In this document: positions 7,840 to 32,969 of the stretch, piece after piece
Layout: every line of letters starts with the position of its first letter
Numbering within the stretch: the stretch's first letter is position 1
Assembly (NCBI GenBank): GCA_958430865.1
Contig: CAUDNR010001101.1
Coordinates: forward strand, 25,003 to 57,971
Source of the DNA: Entrophospora sp. SA101
Taxonomy: Eukaryota > Glomeromycota > Glomeromycetes > Entrophosporales > Entrophosporaceae
Reading direction: 5' to 3'
Length of the DNA: 32,969 nt
The notes under the pieces: generated by a model
What the model was told of the DNA's origin: nothing
Database searches by the model: none
The model's input: the letters and a program-made list of their open reading frames with translations, nothing else
Made by a program: the position numbers and the translations under genes

Positions 7840-8091
7840 AACAAAACCCACATTGTGACACACAGGGTTCAAAATTAGTATATATATCAGTAATAATATG
7901 AAATCATAAACAGGACCTTTGATTGGAAAGTCAATTCAAATTGAGATTTTTATGCAGCTAAAACATTGTTTGAAACTTTATTTACAATCTTTGTATATTC
8001 CTTAATTTAATAAATTTTTTGTTTTTCAACTGTAAACAAATAAAATAAAATAAATTGTTAAGACACTGTCTTTTAAAAATGAAAAAAAAAT

Positions 8092-10533
8092 TCATTCAAA
8101 ACAAGGAAGATAGGATAATCCATCAGCAGGAGTTGGTGATTGAGGATCTTGACTATTTTTTAGATAATCTTTAGTGGATTTTTCTGGTGAGCATTGAACT
8201 GTATTCACCTTTATATAACTAGCATCATTTAAATGTCTATTTATTTTATTCATTTTTCTGGCAGTTGAAAGTACCTCACTCTGTTGTAATAATAAAAGTC
8301 ATCATTAGTATCAAGAAAGAATATCTATGAATGAACATTCATTACTAATTCTTACCTGAAAACACATTAATTCAACCATATTTGTTGCAAAAATTTCAAA
8401 ATCATCAAAAGAAACTGGTATTTTTATGGATAGGAATTGATTAAGAAGATATATTGAAGGAAGTGGTCTACTCAAATACTTAATATTAATATATCCATCT
8501 ATAGAGAAAATATTTAGTTATACATATGTAAACAAACAGTATTTTTCTATCATGGACTTCTACTTACTGACTGACTGGATAATATAAACTCTTGCAATTT
8601 CCTTTGATACTGTTTTTAATAAATCATTTAAAATCCTCATTGCATTTCTACATAATTTCACATGATCATCACCTTTTTTTTCTGTTGCTTTTTTTCCTTT
8701 AGAGAATTCAATCAATACAATTGCTTTATTAGTTTTCTTTGTTTTAATCACTTTTAATACACCATCAAATTTATGCTTTTTAGTAGAGGGTGTTGTCAAT
8801 TCAATCCTAGTGAAATAAATAGAGAATTAGTAGTGGCAAAAAAATCAAATGAATTAAAATTCACAATTGATATTCACCATCCAAGATCTAACATATCACT
8901 ATGCATTCTAAATAGCCTTGAAATTATATAAACAATAGTGTCAATGGAATAGGTCCTTTCAAGGTTGCCATAATTTGATTCATTTGAGACTGGTGCCTCC
9001 AATCTAACAGAGCTATTAATATTAACAAAGTTAGAAATAATGCAAAGGTTGGTTTGCATGTGTGAAAACACTTACCAATGTGTCATAATTTGTTGTGCTA
9101 TATCATAATCCTCATTATAGTAAGGATCAAATCTACCATCAATAAAACTTTTCCTTACCAAGGTTGGGACCCAAGCCCTTTTGCAATATTTTTCATTAAA
9201 TTGATTAATGTATTCTTTAAATTCCTTTGTTTGATCCTGCCATTCCTGCTTTCTCAGCACACCATTTAACCAATTTAATTCTTCTTTGTCAAATTTTGAT
9301 TGAATTAGAAAATATATCTTTTTATCAGAAACCTCTAGAATCCCATTAAGCAATAAAGAATCCATATGTGTTTTCTTTGAAAATTTTTCTTTTTCTTGAG
9401 CTTTTCTTAAAATCGTAGTTAATTTACCAGAAATTTTAATTTCAAACTAGAAGATTATGCAGGGTGAGCATATAAAGAAAGAGATTAAATATTATGATTA
9501 AAATCACCAAGTTGCAGAAGCCATTTTACATTAAAAGAAAGTCAATAATACCTCTGTAAGATTTTCCCCTACATGTTCAATAACTTCTAAACCATTCTCT
9601 CCATCTTCTTCAGAAATCGCCTTAGTTGTTTTTATCTGTATGAAAATATAAATGTTAAAAAAGCAAGGATTTTTTGTAAGTTGAAACATTATCTGCAGGT
9701 TACATCTGTGCTGACCTTTTTATTAATCTTCTCAGAACAAATTTCGCCACTATTCAATGTTCGCTTTTCATAATTTGAAATAAAATTTAATTTTTGTTCC
9801 TCAATTAAATCATGTGCTTTATTATTTGATATCGATCTATCAACAATGAACTGAATCTGTAAGCCATTATCAAAAACAGAATTAATAATGCACCCAACCT
9901 TGGAATTTGACATAAATAACCATTATACATACCTCAGTTTGTTTCATCTGAAATTCACCTCTTTCAATTTCTACATCTAACCAAAATCTTTTAACCTCCT
10001 CATTTTGTGTTTGATCCTTACAAAAAGATAATAACAAAAATGATTAGTAAACTTGCTCCAAAACAGTGACAGCAAAGGCAGGTCCTTGGAGGCTACAAAA
10101 GAAACGCGCTCTTGGTACCAAGAACATGCCCTGGTCCTTCATGCAGATTTAGGATGAAGCCCATCAGATTGCATCTGTAACTAGCCTGAGCATGCCAGGC
10201 CGCTTAGATGGTTGTTTAGACAATGAAATTAAAATAAAAATATATTTTGCTATCACCTCATTTTTCAATATTAAACTTAAACTATACTGACCAGCATTCC
10301 ATCTTTTTTGAGTTTATTTGCAACCATAATCCATTTTTCATCTTTAGATATTTGTGCAATATATGATAGAAATTTTGAGATGAGTGCATGTTCAGCAGAT
10401 TTATTGTATGTAAAATCTTGTTTGATACTACGAAATCGAAGTATTGAAATGAGTGTAAGGTTATTTTTGTCTAAATAATCTTCAAATCCTTCAAATTTCA
10501 AATTGTAATAATATTTCTGACATTTTTGACGCT
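8092..10533 (-). CDS. Lineage-specific protein with a PD-(D/E)XK nuclease-like domain (5' end unresolved)
   Basis: Nine phase-consistent exons: 10533-10292, 10016-9933, 9856-9716, 9635-9552, 9446-9076, 9012-8878, 8806-8568, 8498-8356 and 8280-8092, ending in TGA. Together they encode ~541 residues. The first exon opens at an acceptor with no usable Met, so a 5' exon is missing or lost. Exons 1-5 are charged and partly helical. The C-terminal half has the pattern W-I-E ... KFDG ... AIVLIEFSKG ... DDHVKLCRNAMRIL ... RVYIIQ ... YINIKYLSRPLP, that is an acidic residue, strand, E-x-S/K and a helix, as in the restriction-endonuclease fold. I know this pattern as an expanded family in Rhizophagus proteomes, from memory only. 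In place of the usual E-x-K there is E-F-S-K, so activity is uncertain. Its neighbour at 10960 is a decayed relative in divergent orientation. Confidence 0.65.
10071..10215. other. GC-richer island inside an intron
   Basis: About 145 bases with roughly balanced composition (e.g. CTTGGTACCAAG, GCATGCCAGGCCGC) sit inside the first intron of the PD-(D/E)XK-like gene, in a background that is overwhelmingly A+T. There is no clear open frame or tRNA arms. An inserted short mobile sequence or foreign fragment is possible. Confidence 0.5.
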
Positions 10534-13092: not shown

Positions 13093-14627
13093 ATGAAAAA
13101 TATTTCTTTCACCAGAACAAATAATCATTGTTTGTTGTTTTCAAACCTTTTAAATTCAATTTCACCATCATTCTCAAAATCCCTTAATAATAAAAATTTT
13201 TTTTCACACTCACATTCTACATTGATCAAAAATGGGTTATCATCATCTTCTTCATTATCCAATAATTCACTCGCTATTACTTGGCCAGACACTTCTTTCA
13301 CTTCTAAATACAATTATATCTGGTTACGTGATAATTGTCAATGTTCTCAATGTGTTCACCCTAACAGCGGACAAAAGTTGTTTTCCACTGCAAATATTCC
13401 ACTTGATATCAAACCATTATCAATTAATTTCATGGAGGATTCAGTTGAAGTTGCTTGGGATAAACCATTGTTACTATCATTAAATACAAAAGGATCACAA
13501 AAATCGGATTCTTTGTTCATGTCATCAATTAAATCTCATAAAAGCATCTATTCATTAAACTTTTTAAAAGCTTTTAGTGTAGTGCCATCTTCTTCTTCGC
13601 TCTCAATTGATTCCACAACCAGACTTACAAATGATATCACAAAAATCAATACAAGTAATCCATTTCTCCCTCGCCATAACAGATTTGTAAACCATATTTT
13701 GTGGGACAAATCATTATTTTCTGAAAAGATTACTTCAATTGACTATTCAAATTACATGTCCTCCAATAAAAATTTACTCAAAACTCTAGAACATTTATGG
13801 AGGTATGGATTGGTATTTATAAACAATGTGCCAATTGCTCTTCATCAGAATGAAGGAGAAAAACAACTAGCGATAGAGAATGTGGTGAAACGAATTGGTA
13901 CAATAAAAAATACATTTTATGGAAGAACTTGGGATGTTGTTTCATTACCTGGTGCTAAAAATATTGCTTATTCAAATTTGGAATTAGGTTTACATATGGA
14001 CTTATTGTATGAAATAATAATAAATAATCTTTTTTTATTTCTTATATTGTTAATTATATTTATTTTTTTTTTTAAAGATATTATGAATCACCACCAGGTA
14101 TACAACTTTTACACTGTTTAAAAAATTCAGCAGAAGGCGGATCAAGTATATTTTCAGATTCATTTAAGGCTATAGAAGTATTAAAGAACAAGTATCCTAG
14201 AGATTATCAAATACTCGTAGAAGTACCAATTACTTTTCAATATGTAAATGATGGACATCACATGTGTTTCAATCGTCCTTTGATAGTTAATGATAACTAT
14301 AATAATCAAACTTCACATGTAAATTATTCACCACCATTTCAAGGTCCAAATGAATATTTATTGATACTGTCAGATGATGAGATAAACAGATTTTATCAAG
14401 CGTATCAAAGATTTTGTTCAATAATTGAAGATCCTGACATGAAATTCGAAATAAGACTGAATCCTGGTGATTTGGCAATGTTCATGAATAGACGTGTACT
14501 GCATGGAAGAACAAGTTTTGACTTGAGAAATGGAGAGAGGCATTTGAAAGGAAGTTATATTGATTTATGTGAATTTAAAGATAAATACAGAACACTATTA
14601 TCAAAATATCAAGATATAAAACATTGA
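13093..14627 (+). CDS. 2OG-Fe(II) dioxygenase of carnitine biosynthesis (gamma-butyrobetaine / trimethyllysine hydroxylase family)
   Basis: Two exons, 13093-14006 and 14078-14627 (intron GTATGA...AAAG), give 487 residues. The first ~50 residues are Ser/Asn-rich with scattered basic residues and few acidic ones, fitting a mitochondrial presequence. Residues ~70-110 form the N-terminal zinc-binding domain typical of this family, with WLRDNCQCSQCVHPNSG (Cys82, Cys84, Cys87, His89). The catalytic TauD-like domain has the iron ligands His301-x-Asp303 (LGLHMDLLYYESPPG), the stretch IQLLHCLKNSAEGGSS, the distal His447 (RRVLHGRTSF) and an Arg near 459 (ERHLKGSY) suited to 2-oxoglutarate. Such enzymes hydroxylate gamma-butyrobetaine or trimethyllysine on the route to carnitine. 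The sequence does not settle which substrate is used; GGSSIFSDSF and HCLKN slightly favour the butyrobetaine type. A Ser/Asn-rich insert near residues 150-200 is unusual. Confidence 0.88.
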
Positions 14628-20074: not shown

Positions 20075-21587
20075 TTATTCTTCTTCTTCAGGTGCTTCTT
20101 GAACTGCTGCAATAATTTTGTCATCATCAAGCATTTCAGTTCCTAAATCAGAATCAATCTCAATGTAACTTCTTGCTGTAATAGTATCATCATCATTATT
20201 AACATTGATTTGATCAATAAGCAATTGTACTTCTTCTATTTCAGAAACAACTTCCATAGTAATAGGTTGGTCAACTTCATTATCAGGTAGAATACCTGTT
20301 TTTTCCCAACATCTATAAATCACATCATCAGTTACATTTTCCCATGCTTTTGCACTCCAATCAATTGCATTCAAAATGTTTAAAATTGGAATTGGGGTTT
20401 CACATTCTTGTGAATTATCAAATGCATTTATCCTGTTATGACACAGGAGTTTTCTATAATGTGACTATTTATTTAAAAAAAAGTCAATTATGTAAATGTA
20501 ATAAAAAATAAAATTTCAATTCAATAAGAATAATTACTTTAAATGAATGAATTATGCCCTGATCAATTGGTTGGAGATGAGCTGTTGTATTTGGCGGAAG
20601 AAAATATAATTTAATATTGCTTAACACTTCACTTTCTTCCAAATAGTGTGAAGGAACATTATCAACTAATAATAAAATATTTCTATGTTGGTTGTGCATC
20701 TGTTGATTAACTTGTTTAAACCATGATTGGAATATTGAACATTGCATCCATGATGAGTTATTCCAATAGTACCACACTGGAAGTGTTTTCTTATCAATAT
20801 TACAAATACATTTTGGATTTTTATATTTATGAATAAATACAGCTGGCAATTTATGAGAACAAGTTGCATTACATGCAAGCATTATTGTAATTCTATCTTT
20901 AGGTTTTTTTGTGCCAGTGATAGGACCACTACTGAGAGTTTTGTTGGGTTCTAACTTACAATAGAGGGCAGTTTTGTCAGCATTATAAACATCATTCAAG
21001 TCATATTCTGCAATTAAATTTTTTAATTCAGCTCTAAATTCTGGTAAGTCATCAATTGGTGCACTTGCTGCTTCACCCGCTTTGTAATGTTCTTTTACAC
21101 CTTTTCTTTTTTTAAAATTAGTAAGCCATCCCTATTAAATATATAGATAAAATGATTAAAATAAAACGAAATTTAATAAATAAAATAATCAAAAAATTGA
21201 TACTTACTTGTGAGGCTGTAAATCCAATAATTTCGAGTCTTCTAACATAATCCAGTGCCTTTTGACAAATGATGGAACCAGTTATGGTATAATTGGCTCT
21301 ATTGGCATTATTAATCCAAATTGCTAATGCTTCTTCCAACTGTGGCCATTCACCTCCATGATCTCATTTAGTAGCATCTGAGCTCTCAGTAATTGCAAGC
21401 CATTTCTCCTTATCTCTAATAATATCTCCTACAGTTGATTTACCAATTCCGAATTTCTTACCAATTTCTTCATATGTTTTGTTTGAATTGGCAATCTTAT
21501 ATTCACATAATTCTTTTTTTGAATATTAGTAAGTGCAACCAATTTTCTTCCTTTCTTGCTTCCAAATCTACTGGATGTTCCTTCCAT
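20075..21587 (-). pseudogene. Pogo/Tigger (CENP-B/DDE_1) transposase, inactivated
   Basis: Three exons, 21587-21208, 21131-20538 and 20464-20075, would encode ~454 residues. The N-terminal part has a helix-turn-helix of the CENP-B/Psq type (KTYEEIGKKFGIGKSTVGDI). It is followed by WPQLEEALAIWINNANR, the CENP-B second HTH region, then a DDE catalytic core with YNADKTALYC, LLLVDNVPSHY and HLQPIDQGIIHSFK; the last two Asp are separated by 32 residues. An acidic tail ends in PEEEE. Two lesions disable it. A 7-A run near 21520 is one base short of the expected frame (between TNIQKK and ELCEYK), and a TGA lies at 21366-21364 in the segment DATK-x-DHGGEWPQ. It cuts and pastes at TA sites in its active form. 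This copy could move only if a relative supplies transposase. Confidence 0.9.
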
Positions 21588-27429: not shown

Positions 27430-28314
27430 ACCAAATATTAATATGGTAATTTTGGATCTTTGTGAAGTTAAAGTTCCAGCATTTGTTCACCGGCTGTACA
27501 TAAATATTGTGATGTACGAAATAAATCTCATCAATGCTAATAGTGCCATTGATCTCTCGAGTTCAATAAAATCAGACTTATATTGTTATAATTTTTTTGG
27601 ATATGTATAAATATGAATTACAACATATTATATTTATATATGTTGTTAAAATTGTGACTTGCATTTTCTTCTTCAAGAGATGCCAATTCATCTTGTGCAA
27701 ATTCCAAAGCTCTAAATATTCTTCCTTTCTATTAATCAAGATGAACATGGCAAATGATCAATAGAAATAGCTTCAAGAGGCTTATAATTCTGGATTTGTA
27801 TCTAATATTTAGAAGAAAAGAAATAATGTAAAGGGGTGATTAATTAAAATAATAATAATATTATTATTTTATATACATATATATATATTGGCTCATTTTT
27901 GAAGAATGAAAGGTGATGTTTAACTTCATTGACCATGATACGGTCTAAGAGTGGTGCAAAACCATTTTCTAATCATTGTCATTTTTATATATAATTCGTA
28001 ATAAAATTTTAATACTTGCCTCTGGATTCAAATTATTTACATACCCATTCTAACTTTTATCAAGCGTCGATATTGATAATTGGTAATTGACCATATTATT
28101 GACTAAATGTTTCAGCTCCATTTTTTTTTTTTTTTGTGTTCTTCAATCACAAAGTAATTTATAATAATAAATTTATAAAAAACAATTTTCAACAAGTAAT
28201 TTATGAAGAATAGAAAAATAGTAATGAATCACTTTCTCGAAAATAAATATGATTAGATAATAATAAAAACCAATTCAAAATTTGTTTACTGGAAATATCT
28301 TTAATATCTGCCAT
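27430..28314 (-). pseudogene. Decayed Gid8/Twa1-like gene (LisH-CTLH protein of the GID E3 complex)
   Basis: Pieces in the correct order on one strand resemble Gid8. There is a possible N-terminus MADIKDISSKQILNWFLL (28314 downward). Then STLDK and, after a stop, NGYVNNLNPE (~28070-28020), then ILDTNPEL (~27812-27789). ALEFAQDELASLEEEN follows (~27720-27673), then ELERSMALLA (~27565-27536), and a remnant R-x-TNAGTLTSQ-R (~27490-27460). In intact Gid8 these correspond to the CTLH/CRA path NLNPE-ILDTNP, ALEFAQ-x-LA, ELERTMALLAF and TA-x-LNAAILTSQ. Stops, frame changes and damaged splice sites (GC donor after NLNPE, acceptor reading TTCTAA before ILDTN) show decay. Head-to-head with DDX41, about 210 bp away from its start. 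Confidence 0.6.
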
Positions 28315-28943
28315 TTTGTCCGTAAAAAATTTCTTGATAAAAAATTTTTTATTAATATGCAAGAGTAAAAAAAAATAGATCAATTTATAATAGAAATTCG
28401 TTTGCTGATCTGTAATTTGAAAATTCTTCACTCTTTTGGTTTTGGACGGTACAAAGTTCCACACACACACTCTCTATAGTAAACCTTCTATATTTTCGTA
28501 TTAATTATAAAAAAATGAATTCCGGACAAGGAGAAGTTCATCAATATTAATATTAAAAAAAAATTTTTATACAACATCATAAACTTTATTGTCATAAATT
28601 CTTTTTAAATTTAATTATATCCATGTAAAAGTTCGTCAAGTTACATATGTAATATAAACAAACACATATATATGACTATTTACCAATAAATCTCTATTAC
28701 TTGCAACTCGCCGCAGCTAATTACAGTATATATATAAGAATAGAATTATGGTTGTGGTTGTGGCATATGAAAATTGAATTGTGGTTCATCTTTATATGAG
28801 GCATACTGCAACAAAACCAGACAAAGTGAACATTGGTATTACCAAAAATTACAGGGATCAAATTTAATTATTATCATCACAATTTAGTTTATAATGCCCC
28901 ATTCATTAAGTGATGTATATGTAGAACTGTCCCTATATAAAAT
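28315..28943. other. Intergenic region
   Basis: AT-rich spacer without a gene. It contains one copy of the dispersed repeat (28800-28866). The change from fungal to TGA-as-Trp sequence must lie between here and ~29.2 kb. Confidence 0.45.
28800..28866 (-). repeat. Third, inverted copy of the ~75 bp dispersed repeat
   Basis: The reverse complement reads TTTGATCCCTG, then GGTAATACCAATGTTCACTT, then TGTCTGGTTTTGTTGCAGTA, nearly identical to the copies at 12681-12858 about 16 kb away. Confidence 0.85.
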
Positions 28944-29207
28944 AGTTAATATGAAATTAATTTACTATGGAACCCAAGAATCATAGTACTATCAGAAGTA
29001 TTTTTAAAAAAGGAACAAGGCGAAAAAATTGCTCCCTATATTTTCAAAATAAATGATACTCAAACAATGGAAGCTTATCTAAGAAAAGAAAGGATTACTT
29101 ATGAAATTTACCAAGAAGAAAGAAAAATAATAAATGTTAGAAAAAGAAAGCAGAATGAAAGTATGCTATTACCTAACAAAAAGCAGAAATCCTTAAAAGG
29201 AAAATAA
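28944..29207 (+). CDS. Short lysine-rich reading frame of unknown nature
   Basis: An 87-codon stretch without stops ends at TAA (29205-29207). It reads EVFLKKEQGEKIAPYIF, then YLRKERITYEIYQEERK, and ends KKQKSLKGK. It is highly charged, without a recognised domain or a clear start. It sits at the edge of the tract with the altered code and could be the end of a gene from either source. Confidence 0.3.
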
Positions 29208-29278
29208 CTACCATTTTCTTTGATAGTTGGAATGAATTTCAATTTATACAGAAACTACTTTCTCATTTTCAATCAAGA

Positions 29279-29813
29279 TCATCTTTTAGTCTCTTTAACT
29301 TCAATTTGAGCAATTTGACCATTCTGTTGTTGCAATTGGGTTAATTGAACTTTTAAATCATTGATTTCCTTTTCTTTAGCACTTAATTTATCAACTAGTT
29401 CTTTAGGGGTTAATTTTTTTAATCTTTCTAGTTCAGTCTCCAATTCCTTTATTCTATCCAAAAGTTCTTGCTTTTGCCTCTTACCTCAGACTTTTCTTGA
29501 AACTTGATTACTTCTTCCCTTTTAAATTCTAGGGCTTCTTCAGTCTTGTTTAGTTGTTTTTTTCAGAGAGTTTATTGGCTGTTTGTAGAAAGCAGATTGA
29601 CTTATTTCTTCATGAGGCAAGAGAGGAGGTTCTTTTTCTTCCATATCTTCTTCATATTTGACACAAAAACAAATATATTTGCCACTAAGAACATCAAGGT
29701 AATTTCTAGTTTGTAATCTGCCACATTTCTCACATTTTTCTAGTTCATCATTTTCAAACTTTTCCTTACAGCTCTCACAAACTACATCATCTGCAACATA
29801 TTTACCATTTGTT
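29279..29813 (-). pseudogene. Frameshifted continuation of the coiled-coil / zinc-ribbon gene
   Basis: After the TAA at 29816-29814 the same protein appears to continue one base out of frame. FKTNGKYVADDVVCESCKEK joins on, followed by CEKCGRL and YICFC, a set of CxxC pairs. A second shift leads through TEEALEFKREEVIKFQEKSE to the final DRIKELETELERLKKL coiled coil (29461-29279, stop TAG). The Cys pairs, together with CDFC in the upstream frame, suggest a zinc ribbon between two coiled-coil stretches. At least two single-base shifts are needed to read it through. These could be mutation or sequence error. Confidence 0.5.
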
Positions 29814-31019
29814 TTAAATACAAGCTGCTATTTGATTAACAGACTTATTATCCTCTCCATAAAGATTAGAACAAAAATCACAAGTTTTTCAACTTGCTTT
29901 TTCTAAATCTAAAAGCATGTAAGTTAACTCTCTCATTAATCATCTGTTTACTTCTATTCTAGCAACTAACTCTTGGATTTGGTGTTTTTTGTTCTCTATC
30001 AATTGATTTAATTTAGTTTTTGTTTTTTCCTTAAATAACTTAAATTTACTTTGTTTTTTAGGTAAAGCAGGTAAATCCTTTTCAAATAAATGTAATTGGT
30101 TTTGCAACTTTTTTGTTTTCTTTTGTAAGGTTTTGATTTGCAAATCTTTTTCTGAAATTGTCTTATTAGATGTTTCTGCCTTTTCCCTTTCTTGAACTAG
30201 TTCTTGCTCTAACTTATCAATTATCTTACTAGAAATTTCTAATTTTTGGTTTTTCTCTTTTATGTCTTCTGCTTGATTTTTGCTTCATTTTTCACCAACT
30301 GCTATGACTTCCTTAACTTGTTCCTGTTCTATTTCTACCCTTTCTCCCAATTCCTCTATTCTTTCATCTTGATTTTTTAACTCAGCCTCTAACTCTTTAA
30401 TCTTTTCTTCATATTCTTGATTTTGTTTAGCCACTTTATCAAAATTTTCCTTAGTTTTAAAAGTTAATTCATTCAAACTATTGACTAACTCATCAAGAGA
30501 AAGATTTCTAAGGCCATAATAATTATAACAATTTAGTTTGATTGAATCTCATCCTTCATATCCTTTTTCCAATATTCCTTTTAGAGTTGAATTATCTTCT
30601 ATTTTGCCTTTTTTCAACCACTTTTGAAATAGTTCTTTACTTTCTTCAGAATTTAATTTGATAAGGTTAATAAAGATATCTCTTTTAGCCTTATTCCTTA
30701 CCTGTCAATGAACACTTGATTGCTTATAATAAGAATAATATTGATAAGTATTGAGAACTAAATTCCTGCAAGCTGGTTCAGTAGGATATAATTTACAAAA
30801 ATTAGACCACTTTTCTTGGTCACAATAAACTCTCATAATTTCACCAACCACATCTACATTAGGATTGTCAGTATAATGACTTTCACTTAAAATAGTAGCT
30901 ATTCATGCTCTAATTTCTTTATTATTCAACTGTTTAAATTGTAAAGGTGCTTTTAACTTTTCTACTTCTCCTAATAGTTGTTTATTTCTCTCTTGGAGTT
31001 CATTTATTGTGTTTACCAT
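29814..31019 (-). CDS. Coiled-coil protein readable only with TGA as tryptophan
   Basis: From ATG (31019-31017) to TAA the frame is 402 codons if TGA means Trp. The universal code breaks it six times, at 30905, 30707, 30551, 30287, 29942 and 29891 (first base of each TGA), all in one frame. It starts MVNTINELQERNKQLLGEV. A mixed helical part follows, with a normal TGG also used (QEKWSNFCKLYPTEP). The rest is long coiled coil (EKIKELEAELKNQDERIEEL, DLQIKTLQKKTKKLQ) and it ends near CDFCSNLYGED, a possible zinc ligand pair. There are no introns. I do not recognise the family. Code, lack of introns and composition point to a mollicute-type bacterial origin. No clear Shine-Dalgarno sequence precedes the ATG. 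Confidence 0.7.
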
Positions 31020-31199
31020 ATTTATTTTTTTTTATTTGCTCTTAAATTAAGTATATAAATTATTTTAGTACTTTTTTATTTTAAAGGTGGAAGAAGCTAA
31101 CAATATTTGTCAAAGATTAAACTTATTAAACTTAATGACAGTAGGGGGACAAATTAACAAGTGTGATAAAGTAATGGAGGTGTTTTTGTTCTAAATATT
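31020..31199. other. Spacer between the two TGA-as-Trp genes
   Basis: About 180 bases. The plus strand has a 37-codon open stretch (~31087-31195) with no recognisable feature. No promoter or terminator hairpin is evident. Confidence 0.4.
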
Positions 31200-32612
31200 T
31201 TATTTGTTGCCAGTATAGAATGGTCTTGGACAAGTAATATCTTTGTATTCATCTTTCACAAATGGGTGAATATTATGATAAAGATACTCTTGTCTTTTGT
31301 GATCCAAAGGAGGTGGTGTTAACACTAAAATAGATAAAGCTTTAATCTCTTCAAAAATATCTGATTTCTTGGTTTTCAATAAATTGAATTCAGCAAAAGG
31401 TCCATTAGCAATTTCCTGAGCTTTGACCATACAAGATTAGTTGCTTCAAAAAGAAAATGCTGGTATTTCTGTATACTTGGTAACTTCTTAAAATAAATTC
31501 CCAAAATTGCTTTAAGCATTGAAAACCTTTTCCGCTCTCATAACATTGGGCTTTATTTAATCCTGCTGGACTAGACTTCTTTACTACCTCAACTACATGA
31601 TCTAAACAATCTACTCTTGTTCTTCTATAGAGTTTTTTAATCATGCCAAAATTACCATCACATTTGAATTTAGTATGTCCAGGAATCATGAAATTCAATT
31701 CAATACTTTCATAATAACCACATATTACCAAATATAAATAAAATCAAATAGTAGTGTTATTTTTATTCTGTCCACCAGCATTATCACAAGTAACCTTTAA
31801 ATGCTTTTCACCTTTATCCAATTTCTTAATTCCATCAAAAATTATACTAAGTGTACCATCTTCATTAGGAACATAGTTAATTTGCTCCCTTACTGCTTCA
31901 TCTTGAATACCAAATAAATGAACTTTACATGGACTAAGGTAATAAATTTTACTTACTTGTTGATCTAAATGTGGCACATAAACATTTTGGGCTCAATCAT
32001 AACTATAATGAGCAGTAGCATAAACACTACAATATTGTATTTTACTCTTTGAATAATTCTAATTAACTAATTTTTCTTGTTCTTCTGCTAACTTGGTATT
32101 TTTATTATCTCTTAAATGGTCAGAGTATATTTTAATGGTAACACAAATCAAGGTTTTGATCATTCTTATTGGTCAATTTAACAATCAGCAAAGTAAAAAC
32201 AGTCAATCGACCAACTTTTAAAGAAGATTTTACAAAAACCATAAGGACAACAACTGGATTTTTATTTATAGATTAATCAGCTGAATCTCAAAGATCATTT
32301 CGTATTAGAAAGTGATACCCTCAGGAAAAATTTTTTATATCAGAAAAATTTTATCAGCTATCAATAGCTGATTAACCGTTTAGGGGATAATAATTTCTTT
32401 TTAGACAGATGTTCTTTAAACCTTTTGAGCAAATCTTTAGCTTCTTCCTCTTGGCGAGCATTATAATATAAACCATCTCTAAAATGTTGACAAGTATCAC
32501 ACAAACCAGTCCTTGGACTCATAATTTGAATTTCTAGTGTCAATTGATGTCACCGTTTTCTGAAAGCATCATATTTTAAGGATTTCAATTTGTTATCTTC
32601 TTCTAAACTCAT
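31200..32612 (-). pseudogene. Transposase-like gene with TGA-encoded tryptophans, broken
   Basis: Block A (32612-32358): MSLEEDNKLKSLKYDAFRKR, TGA (32552-32550) as Trp, HQLTLEIQIMSPRTGLCDTC, with a Cys pair, then YYNARQEEEAKDLLKRF. Block B (32058-31405): SVYATAHYSYD, TGA (31995-31993) as Trp, AQNVYVPHLDQQV, then VTCDNAGGQNKNNTTI, TGA (31746-31744) as Trp, FYLYLVICGYYE, then FMIPGHTKFKCDGNFG and LYRRTRVDCLDHV. Block C (31430-31200) is a frameshifted end: VKAQEIANGPFAEF, PPPLDHKRQEYLYHNIHPFV. The D-N-x-GGQN and PGHTKF motifs belong to an RNase-H-like transposase-type family common as repeats in eukaryotes including AM fungi (from memory). There, Trp is expected in D-W-A-Q and in the W after NNTT. 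Stops, frameshifts and an intervening ~300 bp show it is not functional. Confidence 0.65.
32062..32357. other. Non-coding interruption inside the transposase-like gene
   Basis: Between ..FKEHLSKKKLL and NKNTKLAEEQEKL, which I would expect to be nearly adjacent, lie up to ~290 bases with stops in all minus-strand frames. TTAATCAGCTATTGATAGCT and a nearby AGCTGATTAATC are partly self-complementary. A small insertion is likely; its borders cannot be fixed. Confidence 0.35.
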
Positions 32613-32969
32613 TATTGCAAACTTGTCATAGATTTCATTCTATTTTGACTGATGAATCTAATCAAACTAACAAAATTTGGGAGAGATCAAGAACAACATA
32701 CCTGTACTATTTCAAGCTGCCTCCACCATCATGTTGGTCCAAGTTACAATATATACAATTTTTTTTTGAGCCAAACATGTTCTTTTTGCAATAAAATTGA
32801 ATCAACCAAAATTTATTGGAATTCTGCACAAGGTGTTGTGTGAGTTGTCTTGACAAAAAACCATTAAAGTCAAGTAAGTAATTATTACAGATTAATGATG
32901 CCGTCTGTAAATAGTTTGGCCATTCTGTAATATGACAACTTTTCAAGTATGCAGTTGTCAGAAAATCTG
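32613..32969. other. Right-edge sequence, no secure call
   Basis: Minus-strand fragments such as CILEKLSYYRMAKLFTDGII run in from the right edge but are soon interrupted. I see no recognisable domain. Confidence 0.35.

Follow-up and report, generated by a model that had tools for sequence, protein, structure and literature searches.

A dispersed transposon with TGA-encoded tryptophan in the nuclear genome of Entrophospora sp. SA101 and its probable source in Mollicutes-related endobacteria

The window analyzed here is a stretch of 32,969 nucleotides from the mycorrhizal fungus Entrophospora sp. SA101, located within the 103,970-base contig C951 of a 101-Mb assembly of 2,123 contigs. It contains, on its minus strand at 28,794–32,608, a truncated and frameshifted copy of a transposon whose genes use TGA for tryptophan. 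We consider it likely that a DNA transposon with genes in the Mollicutes code, originating from Mollicutes-related endobacteria, has repeatedly entered the fungal nucleus, and that this tract is one of its decayed nuclear copies. A preliminary description of the window had proposed a tract of endobacterial DNA; the reading of TGA as Trp holds and a link to mycoplasma-related endobacteria (MRE) is supported, but the unit is a multi-copy transposon and not a stretch of endobacterial DNA.

Results

TGA codons at conserved tryptophan positions

The element carries a transposase-like open reading frame (ORF1) together with ORF2 and ORF3. We aligned ORF1 from 19 copies, and the majority frame, 579 codons including the stop, is open under the Mollicutes code (code 4) and has five Trp columns. 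These columns hold 88 codons, 57 of which are TGA, 30 TGG and one TAG, and columns 208 and 304 are TGA without exception (18/18 and 19/19, or 37/37 codons). Among the 10,254 codons outside the Trp columns there are 25 TAA, 7 TGA and 3 TAG, with six of the seven TGA coming from two badly aligned copies. TGG is one G-to-A change away from TGA and equally one G-to-A change away from TAG, yet TAG was seen only once; the excess of TGA is therefore beyond chance. That two of five columns should be entirely TGA is not odd, because 56 of 119 Lys/Glu/Gln columns are likewise all-A (the share of A is 0.63 in Trp codons and 0.84 in Lys/Glu/Gln codons). TGA and TGG are interchangeable at conserved Trp positions of the element, as the Mollicutes code allows.

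A protein search of the assembly with an intact ORF1 frame gave 77 matches at 74 or more places, from the best 74 of 1,644 candidates. TGA is present in all 77 matches listed, 42 of which have no other stop. Eight span at least 584 of 590 residues with TGA only and neither TAA nor TAG (on C1574, C636, C145, C1934, C1657, C1532, C1744 and C1452), C1574 being the locus of the query itself; a further locus, L024, seemed intact when insertions were ignored but has a frame change and is excluded from this count. Counts for ORF2 are cruder, as they come from the best tblastn pieces of 16 loci, including the near-identical L008 and L009: its Trp columns hold 43 TGA, 22 TGG and 16 other codons, and its remaining columns 13 TGA, 14 TAA and 4 TAG.

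In the window copy, which lacks the 5' third of ORF1 and carries frameshifts, nine in-frame TGA codons had been reported along with frames of 401 and 217 codons when TGA is read as Trp. Translation of the minus strand under code 4 recovered both frames, with six of the nine TGA codons in the longer and two in the shorter, while the ninth belongs to a frame of 93 codons; a tenth TGA of this last frame, at 32,363, is within an insertion of ~280 bases (Table 1).

Ordinary-code relatives and selection

Ordinary-code genes of the ORF1 family, DUF7869, are numerous in the same genome (best 150 of 277 candidates scored, with TGA-type copies intermixed) and provide a control. In 30 ordinary-code loci from the top of the match list (L029–L058), the Trp columns contain 209 TGG, no TGA, no TAG and 12 other codons, and the TGA codons present in some of these loci sit at columns for Arg, Ile or Glu, the pattern of ordinary decay. 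The code-4 frame of L043 has one TGA, which the frame lengths (605 versus 598) place just before the start of the standard frame. The alignment of Trp columns that the preliminary description had called for thus has TGA and TGG alternating at Trp among the copies of the element and TGG only among ordinary-code relatives. Because those relatives use TGG only, the TGA family is a separate lineage and not this fungus's usual spelling of DUF7869.

The TGA family is also under tighter constraint than the ordinary-code elements. With ORF1 read under code 4, the median ratio of nonsynonymous to synonymous substitution rates (dN/dS) was 0.135 at dS 0.37 (120 pairs among 16 copies, leaving out L014, L022 and the window copy both here and in the counts of private and shared changes below). 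Eight long ordinary-code frames, chosen for length from the 30 loci, gave 0.30–0.44 in 26 of 27 pairs and 0.63 in a near-identical pair. Within the TGA family, dN/dS is 0.133 for codons 1–207, ahead of the first invariant TGA, and 0.155 for codons 305–578, beyond the invariant TGAs and thus out of reach of standard-code translation; after column 395 it is 0.144 in eight TGA copies versus 0.206 in seven TGG copies, and the close pair L017/L021 has 0.12. As constraint is equal before and beyond the invariant TGAs, the family must have evolved where TGA means Trp, and these rates indicate that the ORF1 protein past the TGAs was produced and mattered. Changes shared among copies are strongly synonymous (94 nonsynonymous to 174 synonymous). 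Private changes number 195 to 118 (a ratio of 1.65, against a neutral expectation of 2.4–3.9) and include seven stops; 76 positions at which three or more bases occur were not classified. Since private changes are closer to neutral than shared ones, copies seem to decay after insertion, and the contrast fits a lineage selected elsewhere whose copies relax once inserted.

Copies, ends and movement

A DNA search with the tract returned 82 matching pieces (best 40 of 1,039 candidates) on many contigs at 64–96% identity excluding self. Copy counts from this and the ORF1 search are lower bounds because only part of the candidates was scored. Several of the ORF1 matches are alike, and allelic or duplicated contigs may account for part of the 74 places, so that independent insertions would be fewer. 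Alignment of seven loci defined a unit of 3.7–5.2 kb, mostly near 4 kb, between a motif on the left, ACAAAGTGAACAT, and a right end that holds the inverse of this motif. The right end, GTTTTGTTGCAGYATGCCYCATAT, recurs almost unchanged at 12 of 23 loci, and the flanks beyond it differ; over the 300 bases past it, likeness was found in one pair only and over 24 bases. For the outermost bases on the right we found no equivalent on the left, and a script seeking the reverse of the right end there gave noise only. Overall, the right end is fixed among loci and left ends are variable.

L008 and L009 are 99.2% identical and their likeness stops within 3 bases of the right end; that of L017 and L021 (95%) begins one base into the left motif. 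Such precise breaks point to transposition rather than to random fragments. L015 and L023 have the same 5' truncation and ~1.7 kb of common upstream sequence at 95% and diverge exactly at the right end, as though flank had been captured at one end with the other kept constant. Movement by one-ended copying, of a rolling-circle or reverse-transcription-like kind instead of cut-and-paste, would account for this pair and for the combination of a fixed right end with variable left ends, and it is compatible with an endobacterial source. We nevertheless regard it as unlikely given the integrase-like fold of ORF1 (below), the 13-base motif inverted near both ends and the sharp left break in L017/L021.

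An abundant nuclear repeat lies upstream of ORF1 in L017, L019, L024, L026 and L027, always in the same orientation and ~200–600 bases or more before the left motif (for example L019:5512–6917). Of the 839 candidates for this repeat in the assembly 40 were scored, and most of those places lie, by eye, away from TGA-type copies; its presence near five copies may reflect a target preference or a composite unit. Two candidate empty sites were rejected: a 100% match on C951 for the window copy proved to be an inverted duplication also holding the right end of the element, and the flank used for L028 is itself a repeat. No clean empty site was found at two other places of the upstream repeat.

Products of ORF1, ORF2 and ORF3

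The ORF1 fragment in the window matches DUF7869 (PF25273) with an E-value of 6.6e-14 and 52.4 bits against a curated cut-off of 26 bits, which the L017 frame (62.6 bits) and the homologue P0001 (62.4 bits) also exceed. When modelled, the ORF1 core adopts an RNase-H-like integrase/transposase fold. Its likeness to retroviral integrases and Mos1 mariner transposase is one of fold only, at ~10% identity; against Mos1 the root-mean-square deviation is 14 over 277 residues, and the rest of the protein was barely covered by the structure search. Across 43 sequences E356 and D432 are invariant and D390 nearly so, making these acids candidates for the catalytic site.

The zinc-ribbon-like piece of ORF2 gave only Pfam matches below cut-off, and alignment of the window ORF2 with the homologue P0064 places three TGA codons opposite Trp and one opposite Phe. 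ORF3 was found in 10 of 22 other loci as well as in the window, and its product ends in basic clusters (RKRKQ...NKKQK) which by eye resemble a bipartite nuclear localization signal. L012 has a second ORF3 fragment, 1701–1956 bases upstream of the left motif, where remnants adjoin one another.

Relatives of the element

Ambispora, Geosiphon, Gigaspora, Diversispora and Rhizophagus are among the mycorrhizal fungi that supply named homologues; many more homologues are metagenomic. The sole named bacterial or organellar source among the homologues listed is a metagenome-assembled genome of Candidatus Moeniiplasma glomeromycotorum, with two homologues (P0031 and P0115) whose contigs reach 125 and 27 kb. 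These share the DUF7869 family with the element, but are shorter (329 and 231 residues), and were compared as proteins. In a midpoint-rooted tree of 51 proteins, one group with support of 100/100 unites the TGA-type copies with the Moeniiplasma proteins and their relatives from metagenomes and fungal gene models; within it the Moeniiplasma clade (100/99) is sister to the clade with the nuclear copies (97/97). The ordinary-code copies and a Rhizophagus protein (P0043) fall outside the group, with fish and sponge proteins further out; DUF7869 in ordinary code also occurs in fungi and animals. The ordinary-code loci and P0043 share the Pfam family and the multi-copy state with the TGA element, L029–L058 in the same genome, and L029–L058 differ from it in their TGG-only Trp codons, separate clade and higher dN/dS (eight chosen frames).

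Gene models in four genera of mycorrhizal fungi look distorted by TGA-type copies, judging from the predicted proteins. Column 304 is Trp in two of 19 named fungal models (P0034 and P0047; P0043 excluded), is not reached in one, and is a gap or another residue in the rest. P0016, P0034 and the metagenomic P0013 and P0015 stop just before Trp395, and P0028 before Trp304 (proteins only).

The window copy and its surroundings

The extents of the window copy were set by blastn (Table 1). Its boundary had been placed at 29,200; the right end shared with other copies moves it to 28,794. Part of the ~280-base insertion, in opposite orientation, directly adjoins the copy on C904. An inverted duplication of 1.4 kb (99.8% identical) pairs window positions 27731–29142 with C951 ~8030–9441 and includes flank and right end of the element. 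Other genes of the window are eukaryotic in kind: a tauD/GBBH gene as well as kinesin, CBS and PB1 domains. The first of these, the tauD-like gene at 13,093–14,627, ends in a TGA stop as had been reported. At 20487–21131 on the minus strand lies a decayed DDE_1 (PF03184) transposase in ordinary code, which belongs to a different transposon.

Table 1. Parts of the transposon copy in the window, in window coordinates
Feature	Position	Strand	Remarks
Whole window copy	28794..32608	-	Right end sharp, 5' part missing; right end ...GTTTTGTTGCAGYATGCCYCATAT
Right terminus	28794..28838	-	Holds ACAAAGTGAACAT at 28,821–28,833, inverted relative to the left-side motif of fuller copies
ORF3, small convergent frame	28947..29207	+	~88 residues in L012; frameshifted in the window
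ORF2 C-terminal coiled-coil piece	29258..29521	-	Three in-frame TGA
ORF2 zinc-ribbon-like piece (CxxC...CxxC)	29525..29827	-	One TGA; set off from the main frame by a frameshift
ORF2 main frame, 401 codons, coiled coil	29817..31019	-	From translation; code-4 frame with ATG at 31,019; first bases of TGA at 30905, 30707, 30551, 30287, 29942, 29891
ORF1 C-terminal piece	31203..31436	-	Frameshifted from the preceding ORF1 piece
ORF1 core (DUF7869, transposase-like)	31408..32058	-	217-codon code-4 frame; TGA at Trp304 (31,993–31,995) and Trp395 (31,744–31,746)
~280-base insertion	32108..32387	.	Absent from 18 other aligned copies
ORF1 N-terminal remnant	32388..32608	-	TGA at Trp208 (32,550–32,552)

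Discussion

The most reasonable explanation for these results is probably an endobacterial element that arrives in the nucleus again and again. The element would live and be selected in Mollicutes-related endobacteria of the fungal cytoplasm, where full-length transposase would be made; its DNA, perhaps bound by transposase, would reach the nucleus repeatedly and then insert. There the fungal ribosome would halt at TGA ahead of the catalytic core, and because of this the nuclear copies would drift, break and sometimes be moved or duplicated further. Judging from the shape of the tree, bacteria probably took up a fungal DUF7869 transposon, which was recoded there and sent back as the present family.

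A number of observations weigh against this explanation. TGA coding on the bacterial side is presumed, the Moeniiplasma relatives having been compared as proteins, and P0031 and P0115 appear in a sister clade and not amid the nuclear copies. That clade also includes gene models from Ambispora and Cetraspora, and P0115 pairs with the Ambispora model, which could reflect contamination or another insertion. The decayed copies L008 and L009 are still 99.2% identical but have differing right flanks, which suggests that a dead copy moved within the nucleus, and since five copies have the upstream nuclear repeat in the same orientation, the unit may be more complex or nuclear-amplified. Private changes are not fully neutral (ratio 1.65), so some may have arisen earlier or some copies may still be constrained. 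The 13 TGA codons outside Trp columns make ORF2 less clean than ORF1. Foldseek with ORF1 gave no PDB match at E ≤ 0.001. Searches of genome_contigs by ORF2 and by a DUF7869 alignment confirmed no relatives, and one scan of viral_contigs found none, though near records may be left out of both.

Were the nucleus to amplify the element, and cytosolic ribosomes of the fungus to decode its TGA codons as Trp through a suppressor tRNA or efficient readthrough, no endobacterium would be needed today. Near-identical pairs with precise breakpoints on fungal contigs, the nuclear repeat upstream of five copies and a dN/dS of 0.12 even in the close pair L017/L021 would fit such amplification. This is nonetheless improbable: each working copy would have two or more TGAs to be read in succession; TGG would be expected under the standard code, yet columns 208 and 304 are TGA in 37/37; ordinary-code relatives in the same genome have 209 TGG and no TGA; and private changes are nearer neutral.

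Fungal mitochondria also read TGA as Trp, and mitochondrial DNA enters nuclei. Seeding of the nucleus by a mitochondrial element or plasmid, in the manner of nuclear mitochondrial DNA segments (NUMTs), would explain the code and offer a route of entry. We judge it rather more doubtful still, as Moeniiplasma is the only named bacterial or organellar source among the homologues listed, and as many copies with shared transposon ends are unlike NUMTs.

An artefact in which endobacterial contigs were joined to fungal ones has a precedent in the endobacterial sequence reported, in the parts of the sources available, for assemblies of these fungi (PMC11423566, PMC10507103), and the preliminary description had kept misassembly open for the window. 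It is very improbable here. Matches to the element lie at 74 or more places on dozens of contigs, the longest of 247 kb, 12 loci have near-identical right ends with unlike flanks, and the junction of the window copy lies inside the 99.8% identical inverted duplication, which carries flank and element together. DnaA gave no match in the assembly (control 13/14), nor did the DNA-polymerase beta clamp (control 10/14). These negatives speak against a complete endobacterial genome in the assembly, but isolated stray bacterial contigs could escape them. In addition, two Entrophospora sp. SA101 gene models, P0076 and P0077, run from other sequence of L006 into the ORF2 of the element; by eye they look identical to L006 except for stretches omitted from the models (56–86% by tblastn, in which gaps are counted), and the joined models are probably annotation artefacts.

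Finally, ordinary decay, in which Trp codons of an old, dead transposon in the standard code turned into TGA, would suit the truncated and frameshifted window copy and requires one transition per codon, but it is scarcely credible against 57 TGA to 1 TAG, two columns that are TGA in every copy, near-full-length frames with TGA only, purifying selection past the TGAs and ordinary-code relatives whose TGAs fall at Arg or other columns and not at Trp.

Nuclear DNA in a TGA=Trp code has counterparts in NUMTs and in nuclear copies of mitoviruses, which are inserted fragments; the endobacterial transposon proposed here differs from them in that it is repeated, its copies have transposon ends in common and its transposase frames have been under selection. 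Papers of 2015 in PNAS reportedly presented MRE genomes. Gene transfer from fungus to MRE has been reported, and Claroideoglomus etunicatum is described as harbouring multiple MRE, both in part of PMC10507103; the family of this fungus is now called Entrophosporaceae according to an excerpt of PMC9835108. For bacterial genes in Rhizophagus irregularis, part of PMC5982333 places the donors outside the known MRE. The fungus-to-MRE transfers involve the same partners as here, and the present case would differ in running from bacterium to nucleus, repeatedly, as a mobile element and in a different code. A full-text search found no paper on DUF7869, and none of the titles and abstract openings among the literature matches listed describes such an element, preprints and most subscription journals being outside the reach of these searches.

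More tentatively, and with less confidence than we attach to an endobacterial source as such, the family could be a two-compartment transposon, whose transposase is made only in the endosymbiont and which colonizes host chromosomes where its gene is unreadable. The code difference would silence the nuclear copies while the endosymbiont kept supplying new ones; the nucleus would serve as sink or reservoir, and the element would link a bacterial genome with a eukaryotic one, a situation that several mycorrhizal families would probably have in common. On the practical side, gene models of mycorrhizal fungi look distorted by such copies, as far as their proteins indicate. If an endobacterial source is correct, dozens of nuclear copies selected under a bacterial code would amount to heavy traffic from bacterium to fungus, would provide a record of past endobacteria in fungal genomes, and would allow the limits that a foreign code sets on horizontal transfer to be tested directly.

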